DNA of 64,000 nucleotides from Arenicola marina. Lineage: Eukaryota > Annelida > Polychaeta > Arenicolidae. A program made the translations under genes and the position numbers. This document shows positions 33,885-64,000 of the stretch, one piece after another (within the stretch, counting starts at the first letter, position 1; each line of letters starts with the position of its first letter). Location: the NCBI GenBank assembly GCA_964019135.1, contig OZ025249.1, forward strand, positions 15,463,088 through 15,527,087. The letters are read 5' to 3'. The notes under the pieces are model-generated. The model ran no database searches, was not told where the DNA came from, and saw only the letters and a list, made by a program, of their open reading frames with translations.

Positions 33885-33888
33885 TATA

Positions 33889-34797
33889 GCTATACAGTTC
33901 TCGCGATCAGGCCGCGAGACTTTAGTTTTGGGGACAAACAAACACAAGTGCTCCATGTTGAAGTATAGGCAGCTGTAAGTCAATTTCTTTCCAGGTTTAT
34001 TCTAAAGACTATGGGTACCATTTCACTAAACATGGCTATGGGAGATATACGTTAAAATATTTCAAAACACTCGAAAGCTAAAAATAACGTTCTAAATTCA
34101 GCCCTGCACCCGGGCTTTCGAAAGTTCCTCAAAGAGCGAGTGACGTCACAGACGTTCACGTGCCTCCGCGGTAACAAAAATGGCGAGAGCAAGTGGTCGA
34201 CTTAACCATTCCGCTGTCAAAATGTCCAGTACATGGAGTACCGTACAGCACACGGATGCATCATTAAACCACATGGTAAAGATACAATAAGACCAGTTGG
34301 ATGTTTTCGTATCACTTTTGGATCACAAAAAGACCAAGGATCTTCATTTTTGTAAGTTTTCTGTTTGAGGCCTAGCGCCAACGTTGTCACCGGGGAGAAT
34401 CCGTGTGACGTCATAATGCCTCGTTTTCGTAGGAAATGCAAAAAAACGTTAATTTCTCAGTCGTATTGTCCCGTCGTAACAAATATTCGTCATTGTGATG
34501 GCGCAAACGAATAAAAAATATGTCGTCTATCCGTCTTGTGAAGCTATATTTCTTAAATATTCTTAATCATATCGCTAGGCCTTCCGCAATGGACCCAGCC
34601 CTCGGCGCCTGGCTTTTGCGCAGGTAGTCTGGTTCCCAGTCTCTCTCTTTGCGTAACATACACGTCACGCCTACGTCACAGATAGTCAGGATACCAGTGT
34701 GTGCAGAGATTCTAAACTCATTCCGAACACGTGCTTCGTGTGTTTGTCCCCAAAATGAGTAAACCGGAAGTCTAAGCGAACGAGACTTTATAGCCCT
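33889..34797 (-). mobile_element. ~909-bp second copy of the same element, inverted
   Basis: Reverse complement of 32938-33884 at roughly 90-95% by eye. It lacks a ~55-bp segment found in the left copy (around 33665-33715). The two copies meet with an 8-base spacer between GAACTGTATAG and CTATACAGTTC, giving a 1.86-kb near-perfect palindrome. No TATA repeat at its far end. Also carries two TGACGTCA octamers. Confidence 0.75.
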
Positions 34798-38287: not shown

Positions 38288-38972
38288 ATGATGTCGTCTG
38301 CGCGTCGCCCCGCGCTCTTTTGCCTCGCGCTGTGCCTCCTGCACGCTTCTCCGCTGGGCGCAGAAGAATCTTCGGTTGACACATCAAGGATGTTGCATCC
38401 CGAGTGGCCAGACTTTGGGAGTGTTTGGGCTGACAACGCCCCGAACGATTATTCTACCGCGGACGACAAGGAACATCAGGCCAAGATTGCATACATTCGA
38501 GAAGTATTCAGACAGGTCCCAATGATGGAAAACCTTAGAAGACATATATACGAAACTCCCGATCCCTTTGATTTTGACATTCCGAATTTTTCGGTAGATT
38601 CCCTTTGGCGAGAAATCGAATTGCAGATTCTTCCCGATGAGACGGAAACCGAGCTCTTCCTGGACATGGTGCGCAGCTATTTGGAACGTCGGGTGTCTCT
38701 AGCTTCGCATGGGAAGGCCGGTGTAAAGTCTTCCAGCAGACCGTCACATGCTCCTAGCACCCGGGCACAGATCGGGGGATACGAAGGCTGCGCGCGAGAC
38801 TACAACGCGTACATTCTCCCCGTCACAGATAACATTCTGCGAGCGTTGATTCTGCGGTGGAACGCCTACGTTGTGAAGGCGTGTAGCGTCAAGCCTAACC
38901 CCGCTTTGTGCGAGGCCCTTTTGATTCAAGAGCCACCAGCTTCTGCAAATTCACCTCCATGGGCTGCTCGAC
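38288..38972 (+). CDS. nrf-6-like exon 1: signal peptide and start of NRF domain
   Basis: 685 nt. ATG 38288 (a second ATG follows directly) opens a hydrophobic signal peptide (LFCLALCLLHASPLGA). Then comes an acidic stalk and, from ~residue 164, GYEGCARDYNAYI, the first conserved Cys of the NRF domain. Donor CGAC|GTAAGT, phase 1. Confidence 0.88.
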
Positions 38973-41900: not shown

Positions 41901-44900
41901 GGCCACGCCGCACGACATAGTGAGGCAGGGTGAGTATGTTAAGGGTGGCCACGCCGCACGACATAGTGAGGCGGGGTGAGTATGTTAAGGGTGGCCACGC
42001 CGCACGACATAGTGAGGCGGGGTGAGTATGTTAAGGGTGGTCACGCCGCACGACATAGTGAGGCGGGGTGAGTATGTTAAGGGTGGTCACGCCGCACGAC
42101 ATAGCGAGGCAGGGTGAGTATGTTAAGGGTGGTCACGCCGCACGACATAGTGAGGCAGGGTGAGTATGTTAAGGGTGGCCACGCCGCACGACATAGTGAG
42201 GCGGGGTGAGTATGTTAAGGGTGGTCACGCCGCACGACATAGTGAGGCGGGGTGAGTATGTTAAGGGTGGCCACGCCGCACGACATAGTGAGGCGGGGTG
42301 AGTATGTTAAGGGTGGCCACGCCGCACGACATAGTGAGGCAGGGTGAGTATGTTAAGGGTGGCCACGCCGCACGACATAGTGAGGCGGGGTGAGTATGTT
42401 AAGGGTGGTCACGCCGCACGACATAGTGAGGCAGGGTGAGTATGTTAAGGGTGGCCACGCCGCACGACATAGTGAGGCGGGGTGAGTATGTTAAGGGTGG
42501 TCACGCCGCACGACATAGTGAGGCAGGGTGAGTATGTTAAGGGTGGCCACGCCGCACGACATAGTGAGGCAGGGTGAGTATGTTACTGTTGCCACGCCGC
42601 ACGACTTAGTGAAGCAGGGTGAGTATGCTAAGGGTGGCCACGCCGCGCGGTCTGTGGTGCGCAGTCTGTGGTGGATCTCTGTCTCTTTACTGCGACCTAA
42701 GCAAACATTAGATGCACTGTTAAAGCCGAGATACTTTGGGAAGGTGCACTGTCGCGATCGGTGTACGAAACATGCGCTCTTTAGGTCCAAATGTTTTTTT
42801 TAAGAACTGGACATATTCTGGGAATGTCCATATCAGGTAACAGTTAGGTATCAACATTCTAGTCTTATACACTACATGTGTTAACTTGTTAACCAGCGTT
42901 TGGTATATTTTACATTGTTAACACTAGCGAATTTGAAGTATTGTTATACAATGGATGATTTTTCCTGCCAGGCAAACGGCCGAACCATGACGTCAGAGGG
43001 CGGTGGGGTATACGTCCTGGACGGGGACTCAGATCACTGCTGGCACAGAAACCAAGTAAGCCCAGAAAGGCACACGCAGTCTGTGGTGGATCTCTGTCTC
43101 TTTACTGCGACCCTATTCACCATATGGCGACGCTGTTCGTCTTTAAATCGATTAATAGAGTGGCCAGCAAAGTACGCGCATAGTACCGCCATCTGGTGAG
43201 CTATTTCGTAGTTAGCTGGTGCAGTGTGCTTCCATTTAGTGGGTCATTTGGTAACAATATATTGTAACGGTGCGACGAGACGATACCGTCTGCTGCAGAC
43301 AGGTTGGACCCAGAATGGAGTCCGACTCAAAAGTTTTCTCAAAAGTGTTTGCGGGGGTGGGGGGGGCTATGGAGGAGGTACGATAGGGGGGATTACGAAT
43401 ACTGATCTCGATATTTGCCCCGCATTTATGCCAAAATTCCAACTGCCAAGCACCTTTTAAAATAACAATTAGGTCGTAAGTTTCTATATCATGCTGTATA
43501 ATGCTGTATTTGCTTATCGATATGCTTTATGTGTTATGTCTGCTATGTATTGTCTTCTGTCGTGTCATATTCTGTCATCATTATAGAATATCCCATTGCC
43601 TGTTATGTAATGTTATGCTTCGCATTCTATCTGTGGTCTATTCGTATATATGCCTACAGATCAATGAATGAATCCTGGGTTGGAATCCGGGCCCCGACAC
43701 CTACCCTGGGGGCACATTTCATCCATTCATCTCTCATCGTCCACCCCGATATGTTCCTTGTCCCAGTTTAGCTCCGCTGTGTGCATAAAAGCAGCCTATA
43801 ACAATATTCGCATATATGCATGCGTTATATCTTTGTCGTACCCCAGCGTTTGCCGACCGCATGGAGGTGTGCTGGGTCGGCTTCTCCATGTACAGCAACA
43901 TACGTCACATGTTCAGCACAGAGACACGCTCGGACCGCGCCAGATCGCTGGACGGCCTACGCACCCTCGCCCTCCTCTGGCTCATCTCCGGAATGACGTG
44001 GGTCTTCTCTATAGTCTACTTCGAGTCGTGGACAACGCGTGAGTTCCATAGACGAACAGACAGTGCGTGAACGCTATAACCCCCCCCCCCCCTTTGATCG
44101 TTTACTGACGGGTTCATTTTGTTGTCGAATCCCAGTAAAAAGTCCTGATTATATGAACAAATATGACACATGATATGTATATATTATTAAATATGTATAT
44201 ATTGTTATTTGAGATAAATTTGTGGTGCGGCACACGTGTTTGGTGACGGCAATCGATCAATAGGCTTGGTGGCCATAGTCGGTCGACATCGACGATTCAT
44301 GGATTCAAATCCATTGCCGATTGATTCATGTTCATTATAATATCCTGTGACTGTACACAAGCAATATCCTAATCCTTGATGAGGTGATAACAAAGCGGTT
44401 CCATCGTGATTTTTAGATTTCTTTTGCCCTGTAGACAATTTACTTCAAGCGGCGACGACGTTCCCCAAGGAATGGAGGTTCATGACAACCTTAGGGGTGT
44501 ATCACTGTCATGATCTTTTCCTTGTTGTCAGGTTAGTGGAGACAAATTGTGGAAATACATGGAATATTTATGAATGTGGGACTGATTTTTTAAACACTGT
44601 AACTGGTCGTTTTTCTAATGTTAGGGCGAACCATTGCTTCTGTAGAGTTCACGTATTGATCACGCTGTATATTTAGTACAATATGATTGACTTCGTGGAA
44701 AGATGGATTCAACTTCAAACTTTATGTCCTCGACCGGATCATGTTCCTTGTAGGTCAGATGTGCTAAATAATTTAACCCGTCCGTCGGATTGACTGTTCG
44801 GCGTCTTTCGAAGTGATGTTGGGTTGCTGTGTGAATCTATCTCCATGTCGCTTATCAATTGCTCCATGCAGTGGCGCAGCCTGTGTGCTGGCCTACTACC

Positions 44901-47310
44901 GGAAGTGGGAAGAAAATGACCGCAAGATGACGGTTTGGTTCTTTTTCCGGTTCTTCCTTAACCGCTACTGGTTGTAAGTGCATTCTAGCCTGTCTTATTT
45001 CATTATAATATTTTTTTACTTTAAATTTCATCGTTAATAATATATCTTACATTATATGAAGAATAGCCAATGTTTGTTTCCCCGTTGGCCACTACTTCAT
45101 GGCATTAGTACATTTCCTTCGTGAATCTCTGACAGCGTGTCGCATACGGTCATAGCAACACCGATATATGATCCACAGCAACATTCATCTATGATTCATA
45201 GCAACAACCGTATATGATCCATAACAACACATATATATGATCCATAGCAACAGCCGTATATGATCCATAGCAACATCCATATATGATCCATAGCAACACC
45301 TATATATGATCCATCCCAACAGCTATATATGATCCATAACAACACCTATATATGATCCATATTAACAACCGTATATGATCCAAGACAACACCTATATATG
45401 ATCCATAGCAACAGCCATATATTTATACATACAGCAGCCGTGTATTAGTCATAGCAATACCAATATTTAATTCAATCTACACTAATAAATCATGCATAGC
45501 AACACATAAATGTGACCCATAGCAACTCAAAACGGACTTAATTGCCGCTTCCTGACAGCTTCATGCCGGGCTTTATGCTGGCGCTGAACCTGTACATGAA
45601 TGGCTACGAGTACCTGGGAGACGGCCCCCTGAACCCTCACGTCAACTCGGACGGCAAGAACTGCGAGACCACGTGGTGGGTTGTCCTCCTGCAGCTCCAA
45701 AACGTGGTCAAGACAGACCAACAGGTAGGAGGAGGAATAGTGGGATCCATTTCAGGGAAACGTCGTTAAATAAATGATTTTTTTTTTTTGAAATACGAAA
45801 ACATTGTATAAATGTAAAACTATCCTGAAGTTATAGGACACGCACATAACTAGACCGTCGTGTTAAATGTTCATCTTTATTGACATCATCACCTGTCTCG
45901 ATCACCACATGTTTAAAAGCCAGGATACATATCTCTATCTCGACAGTGCTTTGGCTGGTCCTGGGGCTTTGCGATGATCTTCCAGCTGAATATAGCCTCC
46001 TTCGCCGTCCTTATACCGCTGATGCTGTGAGTAATTCTCTGTTTGAAACAATGTTTCTGGAATTTAACATTTTGTTTTTTTTAACATTATTTATGAACGA
46101 CTATAATACAAGAATTTTGATTGTGTGTGATATCATTTTAATTATTACCTCACATGGAAGCAGTTTCTGATCAACATACATGGACGTTGTGAAGTCACTT
46201 ATCATCCTACCCATGGTCTGTCACGTGGTTTACGTCTTCTGCTTCCGGTCAGTCGGGGCCGGCCCGATAGCTTTGTGGGTTAGGGCGCTCGCATTGAATG
46301 CTCTGGTCACCTGAGAGCCTAACGGCATGTGGATCGATGGTTCGAGCTGGTTCGCGGGGTCGCAGGATAAAGATCCCATGCCCTTCTTCGCAAAGAGTAG
46401 GGGGTTATTCCCGGGGGCATGGCTCCACTCTCCTTTCCTTCTCCCATCGACGCGATATGACCAAAAGTGGTTAAAGCGTCCTGAACATACAACCAACCAA
46501 CCAATCTGCTTCCGGTCGTCTTGCAGCGTTCCTGTCCTGGGCTATGTCGTCATCGTCGCCTTTTTCATCGTCGGCATTGTGACCTCAGCCATATACAACA
46601 TGAAAGCGTGAGTAAAACATGTCATCCGTTAGCTTACGTTTGTAATTCTTATGGATAGTGCAACACCAGCGACTAGACAGATTAAGTGGCGCGCACGGTA
46701 GTAATGTAATACGCGTTAGAACGATGGGATGGTATTTAGACATTTCTGATATATGTACGTGTGCCATTTACGTACTGGGAATTTAATAATGGATAATTTA
46801 ACGTTCGCTGTCCATTTTTAGACGCCAGAATGCATAACAATTTGTATATTTATAAGTATATATAATATAATTAGGGCTTTATTTATAACTATGGTTATAA
46901 ATAAAACCTTATGTTATCTATACTTATAAATATATAAATAGTCATGCGTTCTGACAATTATCTATACTGTTTTATTTATAGATATAGTTAGTATTATTAT
47001 ATAGGTTTTATTTATGACCATATATACTAGTTTATAATGTAATTTTCCTTCAGACATGCGTCCTCAGCGTAATAATATTTTGTAAAAGGGAGCAACTTTC
47101 ACGTGAATGTCGGACACACTAGTACGCGATGATTACATATCATAACGTGTTGGTGTATGCTTCCCTTTCGCGACCGACAGGAGGGAGGGGGAGGCTGGCT
47201 GGTACATAGATGTGCTGCAAGCCCCCTGGTGTAACGCCGGACAGTACGCTATCGGGCTCGCCCTCGGCGTCCTGCTCCACAAAAAGAAGGGCAAGGCCAA
47301 GATGCACCCG
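38288..47310 (+). CDS. nrf-6-like (nose resistant to fluoxetine) multipass acyltransferase, 5' part, 3' end beyond window
   Basis: Predicted membrane protein of the NRF/acyltransferase-3 family (C. elegans nrf-6/ndg-4, Drosophila drop dead), thought to move acyl groups or lipids across membranes. Exons 38288-38972, 39853-40028, 40288-40378, 41270-41378, 41802-41929, (42972-43055, uncertain), 43847-44038, 44435-44531, 44872-44973, 45559-45724, 45947-46026, 46527-46607 and 47181-47310 join in phase without a stop. They give 679 codons without exon 6. A signal peptide is followed by the extracellular NRF domain (GYEGCARDY, HWVGTQEEC, GMCFPDTC), a membrane segment (GLTFAIVGVVIVAT), then family landmarks FSMYSN, LDGLRTLALLW, LFLVVSG, YLGDGPLNP and CFGWSW. 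The usual GH after the first catalytic-helix motif reads GM (Met at ~446), suggesting lost or altered catalysis. At least the last two or three helices are missing beyond base 64000. Confidence 0.88.
39111..39392 (+). mobile_element. tRNA-derived SINE, copy C, with 11-bp target-site duplication
   Basis: Element 39122-39381 with A-box TAGCTCAGTGGGCTAG, B-box GGTTCGAGCCC and a tail AACCAATCAACCAAC. Flanked by CTTTAATCGTG at 39111-39121 and 39382-39392. Lies in intron 1 of the nrf-6-like gene, sense orientation. Confidence 0.93.
39530..39690 (-). repeat. dispersed repeat, copy 2 (inverse of 36683-36870)
   Basis: Shares CAGTCTCGGAATTTG, GGGTCAATGTCGA and GTGTCGCCATTTA with the reverse complement of the intergenic copy. 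In intron 1 of the nrf-6-like gene. Confidence 0.6.
39853..40028 (+). CDS. nrf-6-like exon 2 (residues 229-287)
   Basis: 176 nt, phase 1 in and 0 out. Encodes LDSHGATPPTGVLAGKPHWV and GTQEECSKS, the classic NRF-domain pattern (LDASGKPPSG...W.G.YDECL). Confidence 0.92.
40288..40378 (+). CDS. nrf-6-like exon 3 (residues 288-318)
   Basis: 91 nt, phase 0 in and 1 out; acceptor TATTTCAG, donor GAAG|GTAGGA. Encodes PLQFGMCFPDTCTKENISYY, the family's LGLCVPSSCS-type Cys pair. Too short to appear as a long ORF. Confidence 0.88.
40379..41269 (+). other. nrf-6-like intron 3
   Basis: 891 bp, no exon. A stretch from 40457 (GGGGCGGTATTCCTCAAAAT, then GCACGAAAAGTGC) loosely resembles the end of the 31070 MITE-like element, but a matching far end is not seen. 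Confidence 0.45.
41270..41378 (+). CDS. nrf-6-like exon 4 (residues 318-354)
   Basis: 109 nt, phase 1 in and 2 out; acceptor TTGTTGCAG, donor TT|GTGAGT. Encodes RRNITNVYCGLGPDISTDIY, the segment leading to the first transmembrane helix. Confidence 0.82.
41379..41801 (+). other. nrf-6-like intron 4
   Basis: 423 bp. It contains an open stretch that runs through the splice donor (41379-41675), but that frame is out of phase with the following exon and has no family similarity. Confidence 0.5.
41802..41929 (+). CDS. nrf-6-like exon 5 (residues 354-397), first transmembrane helix
   Basis: 128 nt, phase 2 in and 1 out; acceptor CTACACAG. Encodes FGLTFAIVGVVIVATCYDGW, then a basic tail (RQIRKRVATPHDIVRQ). 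The last ~34 nt and the donor G|GTGAGTATGTTA are the first unit of the minisatellite that follows. Confidence 0.9.
41894..42640 (+). repeat. 46-bp minisatellite made from the exon 5 end and its 5' splice site, about 16 copies
   Basis: Each unit consists of GGTGGCCACGCCGCACGACA, TAGTGAGGCRG and GGTGAGTATGTTA. The first unit is the real coding exon end plus donor; ~15 more follow in intron 5 with GTGAGT every 46 bp from 41930 to 42619. Copies differ at only two or three sites (GGCCACG/GGTCACG, GCAGG/GCGGG). Use of any later donor would add 46n nt and shift the frame, because TGA lies in the shifted frame. Confidence 0.95.
42660..43112 (+). repeat. 38-bp direct repeat flanking the candidate exon 6
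   Basis: An identical 38-bp sequence beginning CGCAGTCTGTGGTGGATCTC occurs at 42660-42697 and 43075-43112. The first copy sits just after the 46-bp array; the second starts 19 bp downstream of the candidate exon 6 donor. Confidence 0.9.
42972..43055 (+). CDS. nrf-6-like candidate exon 6 (28 codons, symmetric, possibly optional)
   Basis: 84 nt between CTGCCAG and GTAAGC. With the phase-1 join it reads GKRPNHDVRGRWGIRPGRGL, basic and stop-free, in the cytoplasmic loop after the first helix, where the family is variable. Exon 5 also splices to exon 7 in phase without it, so it may be a cassette exon or no exon at all. Confidence 0.4.
43113..43667 (+). other. nrf-6-like intron 6, unique part
   Basis: No gene. 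Contains a minus-strand CTCF-like motif (43185-43199) and a G-rich run (43352-43395). Confidence 0.45.
43668..43800 (+). mobile_element. second SINE-like family, copy 3 (tail part)
   Basis: B-box-like GGGTTGGAATCC followed by ACATTTCATCCATTCATC, GATATGTTCCTTGTCCCA and GTGTGCATAAAAGCAGCC. Layout parallels 8600-8722. Ends immediately before the exon 7 acceptor region. Confidence 0.4.
43847..44038 (+). CDS. nrf-6-like exon 7: FSMYSN motif and first catalytic-domain helix
   Basis: 192 nt, phase 1 both sides. Encodes VCWVGFSMYSNIRHMFSTET and SLDGLRTLALLWLISGMTW. Family members read FSLYTN...LxGxRxxSMxWVxxGH; here the histidine position is Met (ATG 43993-43995). Confidence 0.92.
44435..44531 (+). 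CDS. nrf-6-like exon 8 (residues 461-493)
   Basis: 97 nt, phase 1 in and 2 out; acceptor CCTGTAG, donor GTCAG|GTTAGT. Encodes EWRFMTTLGVYHCHDLFLVV, corresponding to the family's ...VDTFFFLSG stretch. Intron 7 before it (44039-44434) holds a tRNA-like SINE fragment at about 44262-44330 (GGATTCAAATCC). Confidence 0.82.
44872..44973 (+). CDS. nrf-6-like exon 9 (residues 493-527)
   Basis: 102 nt, phase 2 both sides. Encodes SGAACVLAYYRKWEENDRKM and TVWFFFRFFLNRYW, matching the SGFLVAY...RYxR region of the family. Confidence 0.9.
45149..45510. repeat. ~24-bp minisatellite (intron 9), about 15 copies
   Basis: Repeats of TATATATGATCCATAGCAACA with small length variation; AT-rich. In intron 9 (44974-45558), ending ~50 bp before the exon 10 acceptor. 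Confidence 0.85.
45559..45724 (+). CDS. nrf-6-like exon 10 (residues 527-582)
   Basis: 166 nt, phase 2 in and 0 out. Encodes FMPGFMLALNLYMNGYEYLG, GDGPLNPHV and CETTWWVVLLQLQNVV: the family's YLGSGPLW...C..NWWTNLLYINN block. Confidence 0.93.
45947..46026 (+). CDS. nrf-6-like exon 11 (residues 583-609)
   Basis: 80 nt, phase 0 in and 2 out. Encodes CFGWSWGFAMIFQLNIASFA. The family usually reads C.GW.WYLANDMQF; the Asn-Asp pair is not kept here, another sign of divergence. Confidence 0.9.
46238..46517 (+). mobile_element. tRNA-derived SINE, copy D, with 13-bp target-site duplication next to a splice acceptor
   Basis: Element 46251-46504: GATAGCTTTGTGGGTTAG head with the B-box decayed (GGTTCGAGCTGG), body GGATAAAGATCCC and GGGGTTATTCCC, tail ACCAACCAACCAA. 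Flanked by TCTGCTTCCGGTC at 46238-46250 and 46505-46517. Only 9 bp of intron separate the second duplication from exon 12. Confidence 0.93.
46527..46607 (+). CDS. nrf-6-like exon 12 (residues 609-636), transmembrane helix
   Basis: 81 nt, phase 2 both sides; acceptor GTCTTGCAG, donor GC|GTGAGT. Encodes VPVLGYVVIVAFFIVGIVTS, a membrane helix. Confidence 0.9.
46818..46962. repeat. AT-rich inverted repeat (hairpin, MITE-like) in intron 12
   Basis: Arms of about 70 bp meet at GTTATAAATAAA with a 4-base loop (TATG). The inner part is near-perfect (46845-46934) and the outer part (CCAGAATGCAT against ATGCGTTCTGA) imperfect. Either a short foldback element or a structured intron segment. Confidence 0.65.
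47181..47310 (+). CDS. nrf-6-like exon 13 (residues 636-679), last exon in window
   Basis: 130 nt, phase 2 in and 0 out. Encodes GWYIDVLQAPWCNAGQYAIG and LALGVLLHKKKGKAKMHP, matching the family's PW.R.GPYLIGMLLGYLLHK helix. Donor CCG|GTAAGG. Confidence 0.92.
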
Positions 47311-47651
47311 GTAAGGCTGGGCATTGTAGCCATTGAGGATTGTTGGGGGGGGGGGGGGTCTGTATCCCAGAGGGGTGGGGCGCTGTCTCAGAAGGACGCG
47401 GGGGGGGGGGAACGGTTAAACAAATCTGATGTGTGTGTTCTTCGGGTGCCCCTGGATGACTGGGGGAGCGGACATTTGTAATGAAAAAAATGTACCCCTT
47501 TAGAGCGGATATTTTAAAACTTACGACCGGGGGAGCAGGAGTGACTGAAAAAGTGCATTGATGGAATGGGTTTGCCTGGGAAAAAAGTAAACCGAGCTGG
47601 TCAACGCCAAAAAAAACCCGCCCCTTCCGAGCGGCGTTTGGCGGTAAAACG
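47311..47651 (+). other. start of nrf-6-like intron 13
   Basis: About 340 bp with long G runs (47344-47358, 47400-47410), then A-rich sequence. No exon. The G runs may form quadruplexes and are error-prone to sequence. Confidence 0.6.
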
Positions 47652-50600
47652 CACCAGGATCACCTGTCTCTGGATGTCCTTACCACTGATATAACAATGT
47701 ATCCCCACCCCCAGGCCGGGATCACCTGTCTCTGGATGTCCTTAATTACCACTGATATAACAATGTATCTCAACCCCCAGGCCGGGATCACCTGTCTCTG
47801 GATATCCTTACCACTGATATAACAATGTATCTCCACCCCCAGGCCGGGATCACCTGTCTGGATGTCCTTACCCCCGATATAACAATGTATCCCCTCCCCC
47901 AGGCCCGGATCACCTGTCTCTGGATGTCCTTACCACTGATATAACAATGTATCCCCACCCCCAGTCGGGGTCACCTGTCACTGGATTTCCTTACCGCTGA
48001 TATAGCAATGTATCCCCACGCCCAGGCCGGGATCACCTGTCTCTGGATGTTCTTACCACTGATATAACAATGTATCCCCACCCCAGGCCGGGATCACCTG
48101 TCTCTGGATGTCCTTACCACTGATCTAACAATGTATCCCCACCCCCAGACCGGGATCACCTGTCTCTGGATGTCCTTACCACTGATATAACAATGTATCC
48201 CCACCCCCAGGCCGGGATCACCTGTCCCTGGATGTCCTTACCACTGATATAACAATGTATCCCCACCCCCAGGCCGGGATCACCTGTCCCTGGATGTCCT
48301 TACCACTGATATAACAATGTATCCCCACCCCCAGGCCGGGATCACCTGTCTCTGGATGTCTTTACCACGGATATAACAATGTATCCCCACCCCCAGGCCG
48401 GGATCACCTGTCCCTGGATGTCCTTACCACTGATATAACAATGTATCCCCACCCCCAGGCTGGGATCACCTGTCTCTGGATGTCCTTACCACTGATGTAA
48501 CAATGTATCTCCACCCCCAGGCCGGGATCACCTGTCCCTGGATGTCCTTATCACTGATATAACAATGTATCCCCACCCCAGGCTGGGATCACCTGTCTCT
48601 GGATGTCCTTACCACTGATGTAACAATGTATCTCCACCCCCAGGCCGGGATCACCTGTCCCTGGATGTCCTTACCACTGATATAACAATGTATCCCCACC
48701 CCCAGGCCGGGATCACCTGTCTCTGGATGTCCTTACCACTGATATAGCAATGTATCCCCACCCCCAGGCCGGGATCACCTGTCTCTGGATGTCCTTACCA
48801 CTGATATAACAATGTATCCTCACCCCCAGGCCGAGATCACCTGTCTCTGGATGTCCTTACCACTGATATAACAATGTCTCCCCTCCCCCAGGCCGGGATC
48901 ACGTGTCTCTGGATGTCCTTACCACTGATATAACAATGTATCTTCACCCCCAGGCCGGGATCACCTGTCTGGATGTCTTTACCACTGATATAACAATGTA
49001 TCCCGACCCCCAGGCCGGGATCACCTGTCTCTGGGTGTCCTTACCACTGATATAACCATGTCTCCCCTCCTCCAGGCCGGGATCACCTGTCTCTGGATGT
49101 CCTTACTACTGATATAACAATGTATCCCCACCCCCAGGCCGGGATCACCTGTCTCTGGATGTCCTTACCACTGATATAACAATGTATCTCCACCCCCAGG
49201 CCGAGATCACCTGTCTCTGGATGTCCTTACCACTGATATAACAATGTATCCCCACCCCCAGGCCGGGATCACCTGTCTCTGGATGTCCTTACCACTGATA
49301 TAACCATGTCTCCCCTCCTCCAGGCCGGGATCACCTGTCTCTGGATGTCCTTACTACTGATATAACAATGTATCCCCACCCCCAGGCCGGGATCACCTGT
49401 CTGGATGTCCTTACCACTGATTTAACAATGTATCCCCACCCCAAGGCCGGGATCACCTGTCTCTGGATGTCCTTACCACTGATATAGCAACGTATCTCCA
49501 CCCCCAGGCCGGGATCACCTGTCTCTGGATGTCCTTACCACTGATATAACAATGTATCCCCACCCCCAGGCCGGGGTCACCTGTCTGTGGATGTCCCTAC
49601 CAATGATATAGCAATGTATTTCCACCTCCAGGCCGGGATCACCTGTCTCTGGATGTCCTTACCACTGATATAGCAATGTATCAACACCCCCAGACCGGGA
49701 TCACCTGTCTGTGGATGTCCTTACCACTGATATAACAATGTATCCCCACCCCCAGACCGGGATCACCTGTCTCTGGATGTCTTTACCACTGATATAACAA
49801 TGTATCCCCACCCCCAGACCGGGATCACCTGTCTCTGGATGTCCTTACCACTGATATAACAATGTATCCCAAGCCCCAGACCGGGATCACCTGTCTCTGG
49901 ATGTCTTTACCACTGATAGGACAATGTATCCCCACCCCCAGGCCGGGATCACCTGTCTCTGGATGTCCTTACCACTGATATAACAATGTATCCCCACCCC
50001 CAGGCTGGGATCACCTGTCTCTGGATGTCCTTACCACTGATAGAACAATGTATCCCCACCCCCAGGCCGGGATCACCTGTCTCTGGATGTCCTTACAACT
50101 GATATAACAATGTATCCCAACCCCCAGACCGGGATCACCTGTCTCTGGATGTCTTTACCACTGATAGGACAATGTATCCCCACCCCCAGGCCGGGATCAC
50201 CTGTCTCTGGATGTCCTTACCACTGATAGAACAATGTATCCCCACCCCCAGGCTGGGATCACCTGTCTCTGGATGTCCTTACCACTGATGTAACAATGTA
50301 TCTCCACCCCCAGGCCGGGATCACCTTTCCCTGGATGTCCTTATCACTGATATAACAATGTATCCCCACCCCAGGCTGGGATCACCTGTCTCTGGATGTC
50401 CTTACCACTGATGTAACAATGTATCTCCACCCCCAGGCCGGGATCACCTGTCCCTGGATGTCCTTACCACTGATATAACAATGTATCCCCACCCCCAGGC
50501 CGGGATCACCTGTCTCTGGATGTCCTTACCACTGATATAGCAATGTATCCCCACCCCCAGGCCGGGATCACCTGTCTCTGGATGTCCTTACCACTGATAT

Positions 50601-53600
50601 AACAATGTATCCTCACCCCCAGGCCGAGATCACCTGTCTCTGGATGTCCTTACCACTGATATAACAATGTCTCCCCTCCCCCAGGCCGGGATCACGTGTC
50701 TCTGGATGTCCTTACCACTGATATAACAATGTATCTTCACCCCCAGGCCGGGATCACCTGTCTGGATGTCTTTACCACTGATATAACAATGTATCCCCAC
50801 CCCCAGGACGGGATCACCTGTCTCTGGGTGTCCTTACCACTGATATAACCATGTCTCCCCTCCTCCAGGCCGGGATCACCTGTCTCTGGATGTCCTTACT
50901 ACTGATATAACAATGTATCCCCACCCCCAGGCCGGGATCACCTGTCTCTGGATGTCCTTACCACTGATATAACAATGTATCTCCACCCCCAGGCCGAGAT
51001 CACCTGTCTCTGGATGTCCTTACCACTGATATAACAATGTATCCCCACCCCCAGGCCGGGGTCACCTGTCTGTGGATGTCCCTACCAATGATATAGCAAT
51101 GTATTTCCACCTCCAGGCCGGGATCACCTGTCTCTGGATGTCCTTACCACTGATATAGCAATGTATCAACACCCCCAGACCGGGATCACCTGTCTGTGGA
51201 TGTCCTTACCACTGATATAACAATGTATCCCCACCCCCAGACCGGGATCACCTGTCTCTGGATGTCTTTACCACTGATATAACAATGTATCCCCACCCCC
51301 AGACCGGGATCACCTGTCTCTGGATGTCCTTACCACTGATATAACAATGTATCCCAAGCCCCAGACCGGGATCACCTGTCTCTGGATGTCTTTACCACTG
51401 ATAGGACAATGTATCCCCACCCCCAGGCCGGGATCACCTGTCTCTGGATGTCCTTACCACTGATATAACAATGTATCCCCACCCCCAGGCTGGGATCACC
51501 TGTCCCTGGATGTCCTTACCACTGATAGAACAATGTATCCCCACCCCCAGGCCGGGATCACCTGTCTCTAGATGTCCTTACAACTGATATAACAATGTAC
51601 CCCAACCCCCAGACCGGGATCACCTGTCTCTGGATGTCTTTACCACTGATAGGACAATGTATCCCCACCCCCAGGCCGGGATCACCTGTCTCTGGATGTC
51701 CTTACCACTGATAGAACAATGTATCCCCACCCCAGGCCGGGATCACCTGTCTCTGGATGTCCTTACCACTGATAGAACAATGTATCCCCACCCCCAGGCG
51801 GGGATCACCTGTCTCTGGTTGTCCTTACCACTGATGTAACAATGTATCCCCACCCCCTGACCGGGATCACCTGTCTCTGGATGTCTTTACCACTGATATG
51901 ACAATGTATCCCACCCCCAGGCCGGGATCACCTGTCTCTGGATGTCCTTACCACTGATAGAACAATGTATCCCCACCCCCAGGCCGGGATCACCTGTCTC
52001 TGGATGTCCTTACCACTGATAGAACAATGTATCCCCACCCTCAGGCCGGGATCACCTGTCTCTGGATGTCCTTACCACTGATATAAAAATGTATCCCCAC
52101 CCCCAGGCTGGGATCACCTGTCTCTGGATGTCCTTACCACTGATGTAACAATGTATCCCCACCCCCAGGCCGGGATCACCTGTCCCTGGATGTCCTTACC
52201 ACTGATATAACAATGTATCCCCACCCCCAGGCCGGGATCACCTGTCTCTGGATGTCCTTACCACTGATATAACAATGTATCCCCACCCCCAGGCCCCCGA
52301 TCACCTGTCTCTGGATGTCCTTACCACTGATGTAGTAATGTATCCCCACCCCCAGGCCGGGATCACCTGTCTCTGGATGTCCTTACCACTAATATAACAA
52401 TGTCTCCCCTCCCCCAGGCCGGGATCACCTGTCTCTGGATGTCCTTACCACTGATATAACAATGTATCCCCACCCCCAGACCGGGATAACCTGTCTCTGG
52501 ATGTCTTGACCACTGATAGAACAATGTATCCCCACCCCAGGCCGGGATCACCTGTCTCTGGATGTCCATACCACTGATATAAAAATTGTATCCCCCCCCC
52601 CAGGCTGGGATCACCTGTCTCTGGATGTTCTTACCACTGATATAGCAATGTATCCCCACCCCCAGACCGGGATCACCTGTCTCTGGATGTCTTTACCACT
52701 GATATAACAATGTATCCCACCCCCAGGCCGGGATCACCTGTCTCTGGATGTCCTTACCACTGATAGAACAATGTATCCCCACCCCCAGGCCGGGATCACC
52801 TGTCTCTGGATGTCCTTACCACTGATAGAACAATGTATCCCCACCCCCAGGCCGGGATCACCTGTCTCTGGATGTCCTTACCACTGATATAGCAATGTAT
52901 CCTCACCCCCAGGCCGGGACCACCTGTCTCTGGATGTTCTTACCACTGATATAACAATGTATCCCCACCCCAGGCCGGGATCACCTGTCTCTGGATGTCC
53001 TTACCACTGATCTAACAATGTATCCCCACCCTCAGGCGAGGATCACCTGCCTCTGGATGTCCTTACCACTGATAAAACAATGTATCCCCACCCCCAGGCC
53101 GGTATCACGTGTCTCTGGATGTCCTTACCACTGATATAACAATGTATCCCCACCTCAGGCCGGGATCACCTGTCTCTGGATGTCCTTACCACTGATATAA
53201 CAATGTATTTCCACCCCCAGGCCGGGATCACCTGTCTCTGGATGTTCTTACCACTGATATAACAATGTATCCCCACCCCCAGGCAGGGGTCACCTGTCTG
53301 TGGATGTCCTTACCACTGATGTAACAATGTATCTCCACCCCCAGGCCGGGATCACCTGTCCCTGGATGTCCTTACCACTGATATAACAATGTATCCCCAC
53401 CCCCAGGCCGGGATCACCTGTCTCTGGATGTCCTTACCACTGATATAGCAATGTATCCCCACCCCCAGGCCGGGATCACCTGTCTCTGGATGTCCTTACC
53501 ACTGATATAACAATGTATCCTCACCCCCAGGCCGAGATCACCTGTCTCTGGATGTCCTTACCACTGATATAACAATGTCTCCCCTCCCCCAGGCCGGGAT

Positions 53601-56600
53601 CACGTGTCTCTGGATGTCCTTACCACTGATATAACAATGTATCTTCACCCCCAGGCCGGGATCACCTGTCTGGATGTCTTTACCACTGATATAACAATGT
53701 ATCCCCACCCCCAGGCCGGGATCACCTGTCTCTGGGTGTCCTTACCACTGATATAACCATGTCTCCCCTCCTCCAGGCCGGGATCACCTGTCTCTGGATG
53801 TCCTTACTACTGATATAACAATGTATCCCCACCCCCAGGCCGGGATCACCTGTCTCTGGATGTCCTTACCACTGATATAACAATGTATCTCCACCCCCAG
53901 GCCGAGATCACCTGTCTCTGGATGTCCTTACCACTGATATAACAATGTATCCCAACCCCCAGGCCGGGATCACCTGTCTCTGGATGTCCTTACCACTGAT
54001 ATAACCATGTCTCCCCTCCTCCAGGCCGGGATCACCTGTCTCTGGATGTCCTTACTACTGATATAACAATGTATCCCCACCCCCAGGCCGGGATCACCTG
54101 TCTCTGGATGTCCTTACCACTGATATAACAATGTATCCCCACCCCCAGGCCGAGATCACCTGTCTCTGGATGTCCTTACCACTGATATAATAATGTCTCC
54201 CCTCCCCCAGGCCGGGATCACGTGTCTCTGGATGTCCTTACCACTGATATAACAATGTATCTTCACCCCCAGGCCGGGATCACCTGTCTGGATGTCCTTA
54301 CCACTGATATAACAATGTATCCCCACCCCCAGGCCGGGATCACCTGTCTCTGGATGTCCTTACAACTGATATAACCATATCTCCCCTCCTCCAGGCCGGG
54401 ATCACCTGTCTCTGGATGTCCTTACCACTGATATAACCATGTCTCCCCTCCTCCAGGCCGGGATCACCTGTCTCTGGATGTCCTTACTACTGATATAACA
54501 ATGTATCCCCACCCCCAGGCCGGGATCACCTGTCTGGATGTCCTTACCACTGATTTAACAATGTATCCCCACCCCAAGGCCGGGATCACCTGTCTCTTGA
54601 TGTCCTTACCACTGATATAACAACGTATCTCCACCCCCAGGCCGGGATCACCTGTCTCTGGATGTCCTTACCACTGATATAACAATGTATCCCCACCCCC
54701 AGGCCGGGGTCACCTGTCTGTGGATGTCCCTACCAATGATATAGCAATGTATTTCCACCTCCAGGCCGGGATCACCTGTCTCTGGATGTCCTTACCACTG
54801 ATATAGCAATGTATCAACACCCCCAGACCGGGATCACCTGTCTGTGGATGTCCTTACCACTGATATAACAATGTATCCCCACCCCCAGACCGGGATCACC
54901 TGTCTCTGGATGTCTTTACCACTGATATAACAATGTATCCCCACCCCCAGACCGGGATCACCTGTCTCTGGATTTCCTTAACACTGATATAACAATGTAT
55001 CCCAAGCCCCAGACCGGGATCACCTGTCTCTGGATGTCTTTACCACTGATAGGACAATGTATCCCCACCCCCAGGCCGGGATCACCTGTCTCTGGATGTC
55101 CTTACCACTGATATAACAATGTATCCCCACCCCCAGGCTGGGATCACCTGTCTCTGGATGTCCTTACCACTGATAGAACAATGTATCCCCACCCCCAGGC
55201 CGGGATCACCTGTCTCTGGATGTCCTTACAACTGATATAACAATGTATCCCAACCCCCAGACCGGGATCACCTGTCTCTGGATGTCTTTACCACTGATAG
55301 GACAATGTATCCCCACCCCCAGGCCGGGATCACCTGTCTCTGGATGTCCTTACCACTGATAGAACAATGTATCCCCACCCCAGGCCGGGATCACCTGTCT
55401 CTGGATGTCCTTACCACTGATAGAACAATGTATCCCCACCCCCAGGCTGGGATCACCTGTCTCTGGTTGTCCTTACCACTGATGTAACAATGTATCCCCA
55501 CCCCCAGACCGGGATCACCTGTCTCTGGATGTCTTTACCACTGATATGACAATGTATCCCACCCCCAGGCCGGGATCACCTGTCTCTGGATGTCCTTACC
55601 ACTGATAGAACAATGTATCCCCACCCCCAGGCCGGGATCACCTGTCTCTGGATGTCCTTACCACTGATAGAACAATGTATCCCCACCCCCAGGCCGGGAT
55701 CACCTGTCTCTGGATGTCCTTACCACTGATATAAAAATGTATCCCCACCCCCAGGCTGGGATCACCTATCTCTGGATGTCCTTACCACTGATGTAACAAA
55801 GTATCCCCACCCCCAGGCCGGGATCACCTGTCCCTGGATGTCTTTACCACTGATATAACAATGTATCCCCACCCCCAGGCCGGGATCACCTGTCTCTGGA
55901 TGTCCTTACCACTGATATAACAATGTATCCCCACCCCCAGGCCGGGATCACCTGTCTCTGGATGTCCTTACCACTGATGTAGCAATGTATCCCCACCCCC
56001 AGGCCGGGATCACCTGTCTCTGGATGTCCTTACCACTAATATAACAATGTCTCCCCTCCCCCAGGCCGGGATCACCTGTCTCTGGATGTCCTTACCACTG
56101 ATATAACAATGTATCCCCACCCCCAGACCGGGATAACCTGTCTCTGGATGTCTTGACCACTGATAGAACAATGTATCCCCACCCCCAGGCCGGGATCACC
56201 TGTCTCTGGATGTCCTTACCACTGATATAAAAATTGTATCCCCCCCCCAGGCTGGGATCACCTGTCTCTGGATGTTCTTACCACTGATATAGCAGTGTAT
56301 CCCCACCCCCAGACCGGGATCACCTGTCTCTGGATGTCTTTACCACTGATATAACAATGTATCCCACCCCCAGGCCGGGATCACCTGTCTCTGGATGTCC
56401 TTACCACTGATAGAACAATGTATCCCCACCCCCAGGCCGGGATCACCTGTCTCTGGATGTCCTTACCACTGATAGAACAATGTATCCCCACCCCCAGGCC
56501 GGGATCACCTGTCTCTGGATGTCCTTACCACTGATATAGCAATGTATCCTCACCCCCAGGCCGGGACCACCTGTCTCTGGATGTTCTTACCACTGATATA

Positions 56601-59600
56601 ACAATGTATCCCCACCCCAGGCCGGGATCACCTGTCTCTGGATGTCCTGACCACTGATCTAACAATGTATCCCCACCCCCAGGCGAGGATCACCTGTCTC
56701 TGGATGTCTTTACCACTGATATAACAATGTATCCCCACCCCCAGGCCGGGATCACCTGCCTCTGAATGTCCTTACCACTGATGTAACAATGTATCTCCAC
56801 CTCAAGGCCGGGATCACCTGTCTCTGGATGTCCTTACCACTGATAGAACAATGTATCCCCACCCCCAGGCCGGGATCACCTGTCTCTGGATGTCCTTACC
56901 ACTGATAGAACAATGTATCCCCACCCCCAGGCCGGGATCACCTGTCTCTGGATGTCCTTACCACTGATATAGCAATGTATCCTCACCCCCAGGCCGGGAC
57001 CACCTGTCTCTGGATGTTCTTACCACTGATATAACAATGTATCCCCACCCCAGGCCGGGATCACCTGTCTCTGGATGTCCTGACCACTGATCTAACAATG
57101 TATCCCCACCCCCAGGCGAGGATCACCTGTCTCTGGATGTCTTTACCACTGATATAACAATGTATCCCCACCCCCAGGCTGGGATCACCTGCCTCTGAAT
57201 GTCCTTACCACTGATATAACAATGTATCCCCACCCCCAGGCCGGTATCACGTGTCTCTGGATGTCCTTACCACTGATATAACAATGTATCCCCACCCCCA
57301 GGCCGGGATCACCTGTCTCTGGATGTCCTTACCACTGATATAACAATGTATTTCCACCCCCAGGCCGGGATCACCTGTCTCTGGATGTCCTTACCACTGA
57401 TAAAACAATGTATCCCCACCCCCAGGCCGGTATCACCTGTCTCTGGATGTCCTTACCACTAATATAACAATGTCTCCCCTCCCCCAGGCCGGGATCACCT
57501 GTCTCTGGATGTCCTTACCACTGATATAACAATGTATCCCCACCCCCAGACCGGGATAACCTGTCTCTGGATGTCTTGACCACTGATAGAACAATGTATC
57601 CCCACCCCCAGGCCGGGATCACCTGTCTCTGGATGTCCTTACCACTGATATAAAAATTGTATCCCCCCCCCAGGCTGGGATCACCTGTCTCTGGATGTTC
57701 TTACCACTGATATAGCAGTGTATCCCCACCCCCAGACCGGGATCACCTGTCTCTGGATGTCTTTACCACTGATATAACAATGTATCCCACCCCCAGGCCG
57801 GGATCACCTGTCTCTGGATGTCCTTACCACTGATAGAACAATGTATCCCCACCCCCAGGCCGGGATCACCTGTCTCTGGATGTCCTTACCACTGATAGAA
57901 CAATGTATCCCCACCCCCAGGCCGGGATCACCTGTCTCTGGATGTCCTTACCACTGATATAGCAATGTATCCTCACCCCCAGGCCGGGACCACCTGTCTC
58001 TGGATGTTCTTACCACTGATATAACAATGTATCCCCACCCCAGGCCGGGATCACCTGTCTCTGGATGTCCTGACCACTGATCTAACAATGTATCCCCACC
58101 CCCAGGCTGGGATCACCTGTCTCTGGATGTCCTTACCACTGATGTAACAATGTATCTCCACCTCAAGGCCGGGATCACCTGTCTCTGGATGTCCTTACCA
58201 CTAATATAACAATGTATCCCCACCCCCAGACCGGGATCACCTGTCTCTGGATGTCTTTACCACTGATATAACAATGTATCCCACCCCCAGGCCGGGATCA
58301 CCTGTCTCTGGATGTCCTTACCACTGATAGAACAATGTATCCCCACCCCCAGGCCGGGATCACCTGTCTCTGGATGTCCTTACCACTGATAGAACAATGT
58401 ATCCCCACCCCCAGGCCGGGATCACCTGTCTCTGGATGTCTTTACCACTGATATAACAATGTATCCCACCCCCAGGCCGGGATCACCTGTCTCTGGATGT
58501 CCTTACCACTGATATAACAATGTATCCCACCCCCAGGCCGGGATCACCTGTCTCTGGATGTCCTTACCACTGATAGAACAATGTATCCCCACCCCCAGGC
58601 CGGGATCACCTGTCTCTGGATGTCCTTACCACTGATATAGCAATGTATCCTCACCCCCAGGCCGGGACCACCTGTCTCTGGATGTTCTTACCACTGATAT
58701 AACAATGTATCCCCACCCCAGGCCGGGATCACCTGTCTCTGGATGTCCTGACCACTGATCTAACAATGTATCCCCACCCCCAGGCGAGGATCACCTGTCT
58801 CTGGATGTCTTTACCACTGATATAACAATATATCCCCACCCCCAGGCCGGGATCACCTGTCTCTGGATGTCCTTACCACTGATATAACAATATATCCCCA
58901 CCCCCAGGCTGGGATCACCTGCCTCTGAATGTCCTTACCACTGATGTAACAATGTATCTCCATCTCAAGGCCGGGATCACCTGTCTCTGGATGTCCTTAC
59001 CACTGATGTAGCAATGTATCCCCACCCCCAGGCCGGGATCACGTGTCTCTGGATGTCCTTACCACTGATATAACAATGTATCCCCACCCCCAGGCCGGGA
59101 TCACCTGCCTCTGGATGTCCGTACCACTGATGTAGCAATGTATCCCCACCCCCAGGCCGGGATCACGTGTCTCTGGATGTCCTTACCACTGATAAAACAA
59201 TGTATCCCCACCCCCAGGCCGGTATCACGTGTCTCTGGATGTCCTTACCACTGATATAACAATGTATCCCCACCCCCAGGCCGGGATCACCTGTCTCTGG
59301 ATGTCCTTACCACTGATATAACAATGTATTTCCACCCCCAGGCCGGGATCACCTGTCTCTGGATGTCCTTACCACTGATAAAACAATGTATCCCCACCCC
59401 CAGGCCGGTATCACGTGTCTCTGGATGTCCTTACCACTGATATAACAATGTATCCCCACCCCCAGGCCGGGATCACCTGTCTCTGGATGTCCTTACCACT
59501 GATATAACAATGTATCCCCACCCCCAGGCCGGGATCACCTGTCTCTGGATGTCCTTACCACTGATGTAGCAATGTATCCCCACCCCCAGGCCGGGATCAC

Positions 59601-62600
59601 CTGTCTCTGGATGTCCTTACCACTAATATAACAATGTCTCCCCTCCCCCAGGCCGGGATCACCTGTCTCTGGATGTCCTTACCACTGATATAACAATGTA
59701 TCCCCACCCCCAGACCGGGATAACCTGTCTCTGGATGTCTTGACCACTGATAGAACAATGTATCCCCACCCCCAGGCCGGGATCACCTGTCTCTGGATGT
59801 CCTTACCACTGATATAAAAATTGTATCCCCCCCCAGGCTGGGATCACCTGTCTCTGGATGTTCTTACCACTGATATAGCAATGTATCCCCACCCCCAGAC
59901 CGGGATCACCTGTCTCTGGATGTCTTTACCACTGATATAACAATGTATCCCACCCCCAGGCCGGGATCACCTGTCTCTGGATGTCCTTACCACTGATAGA
60001 ACAATGTATCCCCACCCCCAGGCCGGGATCACCTGTCTCTGGATGTCCTTACCACTGATAGAACAATGTATCCCCACCCCCAGGCCGGGATCACCTGTCT
60101 CTGGATGTCCTTACCACTGATATAGCAATGTATCCTCACCCCCAGGCCGGGACCACCTGTCTCTGGATGTCCTTACCACTGATATAACAATGTATCCCCA
60201 CCCCCAGGCTGGGATCACCTGTCTCTGGATGTCCTTACCACTGATAGAACAATGTATCCCCACCCCCAGGCCGGGATCACCTGTCTCTGGATGTCCTTAC
60301 AACTGATATAACAATGTATCCCAACCCCCAGACCGGGATCACCTGTCTCTGGATGTCTTTACCACTGATAGGACAATGTATCCCCTCCCCCAGGCCGGGA
60401 TCACCTGTCTCTGGATGTCCTTACCACTGATAGAACAATGTATCCCCACCCCAGGCCGGGATCACCTGTCTCTGGATGTCCTTACCACTGATAGAACAAT
60501 GTATCCCCACCCCCAGGCTGGGATCACCTGTCTCTGGTTGTCCTTACCACTGATGTAACAATGTATCCCCACCCCCAGACCGGGATCACCTGTCTCTGGA
60601 TGTCTTTACCACTGATATGACAATGTATCCCACCCCCAGGCCGGGATCACCTGTCTCTGGATGTCCTTACCACTGATAGAACAATGTATCCCCACCCCCA
60701 GGCCGGGATCACCTGTCTCTGGATGTCCTTACCACTGATAGAACAATGTATCCCCACCCCCAGGCCGGGATCACCTGTCTCTGGATGTCCTTACCACTGA
60801 TATAAAAATGTATCCCCACCCCCAGGCTGGGATCACCTATCTCTGGATGTCCTTACCACTGATGTAACAAAGTATCCCCACCCCCAGGCCGGGATCACCT
60901 GTCCCTGGATGTCTTTACCACTGATATAACAATGTATCCCCACCCCCAGGCCGGGATCACCTGTCTCTGGATGTCCTTACCACTGATATAACAATGTATC
61001 CCCACCCCCAGGCCGGGATCACCTGTCTCTGGATGTCCTTACCACTGATGTAGCAATGTATCCCCACCCCCAGGCCGGGATCACCTGTCTCTGGATGTCC
61101 TTACCACTAATATAACAATGTCTCCCCTCCCCCAGGCCGGGATCACCTGTCTCTGGATGTCCTTACCACTGATATAACAATGTATCCCCACCCCCAGACC
61201 GGGATAACCTGTCTCTGGATGTCTTGACCACTGATAGAACAATGTATCCCCACCCCCAGGCCGGGATCACCTGTCTCTGGATGTCCTTACCACTGATATA
61301 AAAATTGTATCCCCCCCCCAGGCTGAGATCACCTGTCTCTGGATGTTCTTACCACTGATATAGCAATGTATCCCCACCCCCAGACCGGGATCACCTGTCT
61401 CTGGATGTCTTTACCACTGATATAACAATGTATCCCACCCCCAGGCCGGGATCACCTGTCTCTGGATGTCCTTACCACTGATAGAACAATGTATCCCCAC
61501 CCCCAGGCCGGGATCACCTGTCTCTGGATGTCCTTACCACTGATAGAACAATGTATCCCCACCCCCAGGCCGGGATCACCTGTCTCTGGATGTCCTTACC
61601 ACTGATATAGCAATGTATCCTCACCCCCAGGCCGGGACCACCTGTCTCTGGATGTTCTTACCACTGATATAACAATGTATCCCCACCCCAGGCCGGGATC
61701 ACCTGTCTCTGGATGTCCTGACCACTGATCTAACAATGTATCCCCACCCCCAGGCGAGGATCACCTGTCTCTGGATGTCTTTACCACTGATATAACAATA
61801 TATCCCCACCCCCAGGCTGGGATCACCTGTCTCTGAATGTCCTTACCACTGATGTAACAATGTATCTCCACCTCAAGGCCGGGATCACCTGCCTCTGGAT
61901 GTCCGTACCACTGATATAGCAATGTATCCCCACCCCCAGGCCGGGATCACGTGTCTCTGGATGTCCTTACCACTGATAAAACAATGTATCCCCACCCCCA
62001 GGCCGGTATCACGTGTCTCTGGATGTCCTTACCACTGATATAACAATGTATCCCCACCCCCAGGCCGGGATCACCTGTCTCTGGATGTCCTTACCACTGA
62101 TATAACAATGTATTTCCACCCCCAGGCCGGGATCACCTGTCTCTGGATGTCCTTACCACTGATAAAACAATGTATCCCCACCCCCAGGCCGGTATCACGT
62201 GTCTCTGGATGTCCTTACCACTGATATAACAATGTATCCCCACCCCCAGGCCGGGATCACCTGTCTCTGGATGTCCTTACCACTGATATAACAATGTATC
62301 CCCACCCCCAGGCCGGGATCACCTGTCTCTGGATGTCCTTACCACTGATGTAGCAATGTATCCCCACCCCCAGGCCGGGATCACCTGTCTCTGGATGTCC
62401 TTACCACTAATATAACAATGTCTCCCCTCCCCCAGGCCGGGATCACCTGTCTCTGGATGTCCTTACCACTGATATAACAATGTATCCCCACCCCCAGACC
62501 GGGATAACCTGTCTCTGGATGTCTTGACCACTGATAGAACAATGTATCCCCACCCCCAGGCCGGGATCACCTGTCTCTGGATGTCCTTACCACTGATATA

Positions 62601-64000
62601 AAAATTGTATCCCCCCCCAGGCTGGGATCACCTGTCTCTGGATGTTCTTACCACTGATATAGCAATGTATCCCCACCCCCAGACCGGGATCACCTGTCTC
62701 TGGATGTCTTTACCACTGATATAACAATGTATCCCACCCCCAGGCCGGGATCACCTGTCTCTGGATGTCCTTACCACCGATATAACAATGTATCAACACC
62801 CCCAGACTAGGGTCACCTGTCTCTGGATGTCCTTACCACTGATCTAACAATGTATCCCCACCCCAAGACCGGGATCACGTGTCTCTGGATGTCCTTACCA
62901 CTGATATAACAATGTATCCCCACCCCCAGGCTGGGATCACCTGTCTCTGGATGTCCTTACCACTGATGTAACAATGTATCTCCACCCCCAGGCCGGGATC
63001 ACCTGTCCCTGGATGTCCTTATCACTGATATAACAATGTATCCCCACCCCCAGGCTGGGATCACCTGTCTCTGGATGTCCTTACCACTGATGTAACAATG
63101 TATCTCCACCCCCAGGCCGGGATCACCTGTCCCTGGATGTCCTTACCACTGATATAACAATGTATCCCCACCCCCAGGCCGGGATCACCTGTCTCTGGAT
63201 GTCCTTACCACTGATATAGCAATATATCCCCACCCCCAGGCCGGGATCACCTGTCTCTGGATGTCCTTACCACTGATATAACAATGTATCCTCACCCCCA
63301 GGCCGAGATCACCTGTCTCTGGATGTCCTTACCACTGATATAACAATGTCTCCCCTCCCCCAGGCCGGGATCACGTGTCTCTGGATGTCCTTACCACTGA
63401 TATAACAATGTATCTTCACCCCCAGGCCGGGATCACCTGTCTGGATGTCTTTACCACTGATATAACAATGTATCCCCACCCCCAGGCCGGGATCACCTGT
63501 CTCTGGGTGTCCTTACCACTGATATAACCATGTCTCCCCTCCTCCAGGCCGGGATCACCTGTCTCTGGATGTCCTTACTACTGATATAACAATGTATCCC
63601 CACCCCCAGGCCGGGATCACCTGTCTCTGGATGTCCTTACCACTGATATAACAATGTATCTCCACCCCCAGGCCGAGATCACCTGTCTCTGGATGTCCTT
63701 ACCACTGATATAACAATGTATCCCCACCCCCAGGCCGGGATCACCTGTCTCTGGATGTTCTTACCACTGATATAACCATGTCTCCCCTCCTCCAGGTCGG
63801 GATCACCTGTCTCTGGATGTCCTTACTACTGATATAACAATGTATCCCCACCCCCAGGCCGGGATCACCTGTCTCTGGATGTCCTTACCACTGATATAAC
63901 AATGTATCCCCACCCCCAGGCCGAGATCACCTGTCTCTGGATGTCCTTACCACTGATATAACAATGTCTCCCCTCCCCCAGGCCGGGATCACCTGTCTGG
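47652..64000 (+). repeat. 62-bp minisatellite carrying a 3' splice-site-like block, ~260 copies, runs off the window
   Basis: Unit: ACTGATATAACAATGTATCC, CCACCCCCAG, then GCCGGGATCACCTGTCTC and TGGATGTCCTTACC. Occasional 57-61-bp units lack CTCT or a C. It lies in intron 13 of the nrf-6-like gene and is still going at 64000. Each unit has a branch-point-like CTGAT ~25 nt before a C-rich tract and CAG, followed by a stop-free stretch reading AGITCLWMSLPLI. Higher-order blocks of ~1.49 kb and ~3.65 kb are visible from rare variants: CCAAGCCCC at 49868, 51354 and 55004; AAAAATTGTATCC near 52580, 56230, 57655, 59815, 61303 and 62599. Confidence 0.96.

Follow-up and report, generated by a model that had tools for sequence, protein, structure and literature searches.

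Intron 12 of an NRF-like gene of Arenicola marina is almost filled by a tandem array of a 62-bp unit, each copy of which reproduces the boundary between that intron and exon 13; 667 decoy boundaries precede the genuine one, over 41 kb. By its structure the array is a mirage minisatellite, a kind already known, and its size is extraordinary, the copy number being roughly a hundredfold that which we found described in the sources cited below.

The window, that is the whole stretch of 64,000 nucleotides analysed (C2:15463088-15527087, in an assembly of 867 Mb and 762 contigs), contains the 5' part of the array at 47657..64000 on the plus strand. Tandem Repeats Finder called 264.2 copies at 47657-63998 with 92% matches, in agreement with the original prediction of an intronic array of some 260 units of 62 bp. 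The array is indeed giant, as had been claimed, and its full length is about 2.5 times that of the part within the window: when the window was joined to the adjoining next 50 kb of the contig, a single array of 668.3 copies (92% matches) was called at 47657-89037 in extended window coordinates, the final 21 nt of the call being exon 13 itself. In contig coordinates the array ends at C2:15552103 and exon 13 starts at C2:15552104. The array is preceded by a unique 5' part of the intron of 346 nt (47311..47656, plus strand), measures 41.4 kb in this one assembly and ends directly at a real exon; it makes up 99% of an intron of 41,706 nt in total. Alignment to the cyclic unit gave 669 entries, comprising one partial unit, 667 full decoys of 59-67 nt and the true boundary. 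The unit consists of 41 nt of intron end, ATGTCCTTACCACTGATATAACAATGTATCCCCACCCCCAG, and 21 nt of exon start, GCCGGGATCACCTGTCTCTGG. The 669 units comprise 248 distinct sequences, with a mean of 2.5 deviations per unit, and blocks of 6 to 18 consecutive units are repeated exactly at distances of 16 to 338 units. This exact recurrence therefore points to growth of the array by repeated block duplication.

At 89017 the last copy becomes protein-coding exon. The sequence there reads ...ATCTCCACCCCCAG/GCCGGTGTCACCTGTCTCTGGCTGCTGGCCATCACC (the slash marking the boundary) and is translated as AGVTCLWLLAIT; in an array unit, ...ATCCCCACCCCCAG/GCCGGGATCACCTGTCTCTGG is followed by a return to ATGTCCTTACC. 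Exon 13 starts with GCCGGTGTCACCTGTCTCTGG (AGVTCLW), from which the unit consensus differs at two bases (19 of 21 identical), and none of the 667 decoys has the TG that the exon itself carries at unit columns 47-48. Because the array abuts an in-frame exon 13 with the same start, with no unique intron between them, the unit is an amplified intron/exon boundary. The tandem unit thus straddles the boundary, adjoins the exon and keeps its splice signals across the copies. This bears out the prediction, made from the window, that the unit copies an intron/exon boundary: the last unit runs into an exon that continues the NRF-like protein, and extension past 64000 shows it passing straight into that exon. 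The next exon had been expected beyond the window with a start of ~37 nt in common; it was found there, and the shared stretch is 21 nt. Likewise, the exon-like stretch of ~37-40 nt ascribed to each unit shrinks to the 21 nt that follow the AG, the rest of the 13-codon reading being intron. According to the sequence and the gene model, the true boundary is in each case the copy closest to the exon, the last one for exon 13 and the first one for exon 5, at which a second array was found (see below).

The host gene was modelled by hand as 15 exons encoding 913 residues (2,742 coding bases including the stop), with GT-AG in all 14 introns and a span of 52 kb. Exons 1-12 lie at 38288..47310 on the plus strand; exons 13-15 lie outside the window, at 89017-89209, 89582-89724 and 90014-90382 in extended coordinates. 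Exon 12 (47181..47310, plus strand) ends at 47310, in phase 0, and the donor GTAAGG at 47311 is the partner of the acceptors; phase and donor had been predicted correctly, while the exon, counted then as 13, is number 12 in the model. Exon 13, of 193 nt, extends the NRF-like protein in frame and shifts the frame if skipped. Across the whole 913-residue model, residues 221-313 matched the Pfam family PF20146 (NRF, nose resistant to fluoxetine, N-terminal) with an E-value of 3e-11 and a score of 44.2 bits (cut-off 27); nothing besides NRF matched at E up to 10, Acyltransferase_3 (PF01757) included, and we therefore call the gene NRF-like and claim no enzyme activity for it. Among the best 7,999 candidates scored, a protein search returned a single homolog, P0001 (E 1.9e-5, 21% identity), which is listed with PF01757 and PF20146 and whose BLASTP alignment covers the region in question and spans the exon 12/13 junction. 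Between exons 5 and 6, the 84 nt at 42972-43055, preceded by AG and followed by GTAAGC, may be an in-frame cassette exon; they are not part of the gene model.

The decoys retain much of an acceptor. An AG is present in 658 of the 668 units and a YAG in 638; 169 of the 668 carry a further AG at most 23 nt upstream, which may have weakened or shifted their acceptors. Pyrimidine content before the AG averages 0.79 in decoys, as compared with 0.80 at the true site. It had been claimed that every unit reads in frame for 13 residues up to a stop. This holds for 512 of the 657 decoys with an AG (213 of them encoding exactly AGITCLWMSLPLI), and fails for the remaining 145, which read for 6 to 54 residues. 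On the face of these signals the spliceosome would have to choose among hundreds of acceptors. Divergence per site is 4.1% in the intronic part of the unit and 4.0% in the exonic part, an equality that would be expected of unused copies. The AG ranks fourth in conservation among the 62 dinucleotides of the unit, better kept than most, and four unit positions are invariant, among them column 16, which may be a branch-point A. Given the common ancestry of the units, we do not take AG retention and the invariant positions as proof of use; they may reflect chance. Selective constraint on the decoys was rejected in view of the equal divergence of the two parts and the fourth place of the AG among 62 dinucleotides.

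Donors are scarce where acceptors abound. On a crude score based on human frequencies, the 14 real donors of the gene score 1.8 to 6.1, and the best of the 2,158 GT dinucleotides in the array scores 0.79, against 1.8 for the weakest real donor. Background sequence from the same locus (20.7 kb, in which eight of the gene's real donors lie) has 35 sites scoring at least 1.8. Neither AATAAA nor ATTAAA occurs anywhere in the array. The lack of donors is unremarkable in itself, since 180 of 500 column-permuted arrays were equally without them; we therefore reject it as evidence of selection against donors within the array, and it would represent helpful luck rather than a demonstrated adaptation. 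Nevertheless, because the decoys have neither a partner donor nor a common poly(A) signal, while exon 13 offers its donor after 193 nt, the last acceptor is the one that exon definition would pick out, and probably does.

We propose that the boundary stretch at intron 12/exon 13 (41 nt of intron and 21 nt of exon) was duplicated head to tail, and that repeated duplication of blocks would have grown the array to its 667 decoy copies until the intron was filled. The genuine acceptor would be that of the last copy, which runs on into exon 13. That acceptor alone would precede a real exon, whose usable donor lies 193 nt further on, and the decoys would be unpairable either as internal or as terminal exons. 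Boundary arrays of this kind probably arise in a genome that amplifies short sequences almost anywhere, some of the seeds straddling a boundary by chance. We consider it likely that this explanation is right as a whole, namely a giant mirage minisatellite built by block duplication of a boundary, seeded by chance and passed over in favour of its last acceptor by exon definition.

The explanations that compete with it concern both the behaviour of the array and its origin. If decoys were noticeably used, truncated proteins or decayed transcripts would result, and array length could tune the output of the gene, much as exon skipping in human ABCA7 is tuned by the length of a VNTR. The near-universal AG (658 of 668 units), a mean pyrimidine richness like that of the true site, the stop after 13 codons in 512 of 657 AG decoys and the frameshift caused by skipping the 193-nt exon 13 all fit such a reading, as does the ABCA7 precedent, in which skipping of exon 19 increases with the length of the VNTR in intron 18 (PMC5954066). 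In the same gene, however, retention of repeat units is independent of VNTR length and exon skipping alone changed (PMC5954066), and published mirages are reported to leave regular splicing undisturbed in the genes examined (PMC3087553; PMC3902484). As the array here lacks a donor by which a decoy exon could be defined, and as the decoys have diverged equally in their exonic and intronic portions, we regard noticeable decoy use as unlikely. A composite of such ideas, in which array length would serve as a rheostat for correct splicing, the hundreds of acceptors vary between animals or cells, and runaway minisatellites routinely capture boundaries that splicing tolerates, seems to us improbable. 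Stepwise removal of the intron by recursive splicing could in principle exploit the repeated acceptors, given that one intron of 41.7 kb holds hundreds of them and that four sites read CAG/GTCGGG. A ratchet site requires AG/GT together with a usable donor, though, and the unit consensus reads AG/GCC; those four sites, the best of the AG/GT class, score 0.79, below every real donor, and on the human matrix every GT of the array falls below the weakest of these. We hold recursive splicing to be highly improbable.

Whether the array is real, and which way the copying went, can be judged from its ends and from a related gene. Large exact recurrences of blocks, of up to 18 units, in a single assembly could mean that a short array was inflated by misassembly. 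We think this very unlikely in view of the 248 distinct sequences among the 669 units and of the large arrays that are common in the grid sample described below, and a true array of small size would nevertheless count as a mirage, since both ends lie in unique sequence. No second haplotype was seen: matches to exon 13 in the assembly are confined to its own locus and a paralog. The paralog starts ~9 kb downstream; its corresponding intron measures 585 nt, lacks an array and has an unrelated 3' end, and exon 13 of that gene begins AWVTILW, with A-VT-LW in common. As the paralog has the same junction and a similar exon start but lacks the array, the exon is older than the repeat; by this comparison of sequences, the coding start of exon 13 came first, and the repeat is a derived copy. 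The reverse, recruitment of the exon start from a pre-existing satellite, could appeal to an array much larger than the exon piece; it is contradicted by the matching residues at the same intron position in an array-less gene, on which ground we rejected it, and it is scarcely credible also because the unit matched nowhere except at its own locus, in a weak search that scored one of two candidates and skipped common words.

The preferred account, a boundary amplified by block duplication and spliced at its last copy, has close relatives in amphioxus, as the original prediction recognized; the likeness is right in kind. Mirage minisatellites have been described in the amphioxus globin genes BflGb6 and BflGb9, with Adh3 cited alongside (PMC3087553), and further in PGBD5 and troponin C (PMC3902484). 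They share with the present array the tandem copies of a boundary, of 3' or 5' type, many units carrying AG/GT, and are reported to be unstable in length (PMC3087553; PMC3902484). The mirages of Adh and troponin C reportedly produce no aberrant mRNAs (PMC3902484). The copy numbers described for BflGb6 (3 and 6 units) and PGBD5 (2 to 7) lie between 2 and 7 (PMC3087553, PMC3902484), in contrast to the 667 decoys over 41 kb here, and the gene that holds these has a further mirage of the 5' type. Among the matches listed, no title or abstract opening describes a mirage of such size. Transcript evidence, from RT-PCR or mRNA, is cited for amphioxus Adh3 and the globins (PMC3087553; PMC3902484).

The ABCA7 VNTR resembles our array in being large, intronic, adjacent to an exon and furnished with splice-site bases, its 25-bp units starting with those of a splice donor (PMC5954066). 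It differs in lying on the donor side, in its 25-bp period and in having been studied in patients, the array here being on the acceptor side with a period of 62 bp; the longest ABCA7 allele named is 9,711 bp, about a quarter of the length of the present array (PMC5954066). Models of intron gain hold that tandem duplication of boundary or AG/GT sequences could found new introns (PMC3087553). Boundary arrays would be raw material for the model put forward from the amphioxus globins (PMC3087553), although in our gene model there is no sign of a decoy delimiting an additional exon.

The second mirage mirrors the array of intron 12. At the boundary of exon 5 (41802..41929, plus strand) with intron 5, a 46-bp unit made up of the last 35 nt of the exon and 11 nt of intron is repeated 16.4 times at 41895..42646 (plus strand). 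Sixteen GTGAGT donors follow one another (41930-42619), the first being the donor of the gene model; 14 of the 15 decoys would lead to a stop and one to a frameshift. Splice-site choice is usually studied with few competing sites, and one gene with ~667 near-identical acceptors and 15 decoy donors would allow exon definition to be tested directly against first-come choice of acceptor.

Minisatellites, defined by a period of at least 10 and at least 3 copies, account for 44.9% of a 200-kb sample taken as 20 stretches of 10 kb at fixed grid positions (C1-C7, L016-L035), the share per stretch ranging from 1.7% to 100%. If the grid sample is typical, such repeats would occupy ~390 of the 867 Mb of the assembly. 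With nearly half of the sampled sequence in minisatellites, splice traps of this sort may therefore be common. One further case was recognized among the 33 grid-sample arrays that passed a filter, a count that is a lower bound, exons having been recognized by eye with Pfam applied to a few. A 70-bp unit repeated 14 times (L017:8767-9755, minus strand) lies across an exon/intron boundary of a gene for WASH complex subunit 7, which we take to be WASHC4; 13 GTAAGT donors stand in a row, the first copy being the model donor. The exon before the array matches PF14744 (4.8e-10), and joined open-frame pieces after it match PF14746 (1.3e-42). Random seeding predicts that 4-6% of arrays should be mirages, assuming 20,000-30,000 genes of 8-9 exons, and the observed 1 in 33 therefore calls for no special targeting of boundaries. 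Three donor-bearing arrays were inspected, at L017, L018 and L028; that at L017 is the mirage, and no exon was recognized at the other two on inspection. Donor-like sites scoring at least 4 occur in 9 of 44 arrays, as compared with 3.85 +/- 2.1 in mononucleotide shuffles; this enrichment in minisatellite units is suggestive only, the 44 including the arrays of the present locus, and a single repeat family (L033) being counted in two rows. For acceptor-like sites no clear enrichment was seen.

Other repeats were noted in the course of the analysis. Within the window, 155 copies of a 46-bp unit at 18227-25292 lie in an intron of a NIF-domain gene, presumably CTD phosphatase-like, whose exons at 17111-25620 (plus strand) stand on either side; this array ends short of the flanking exons. 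A large inverted repeat occupies 32937-34797, with arm pieces of 553, 174 and 141 nt, 92-96% complementarity and a centre near 33885. A similar dispersed element is found at 39121-39370, 46256-46500 and about 2560-2780; by reading, its start appears tRNA-like (GCGATAGCTCAGTGGGCTAGAACGCTCGCATTGA), and one copy ends near exon 11 of the NRF-like gene. In the grid sample, an open frame of ~2,590 codons (L026:3-7775) contains two tandem arrays, one of 48 bp in 85 copies and the other of 66 bp in 22.
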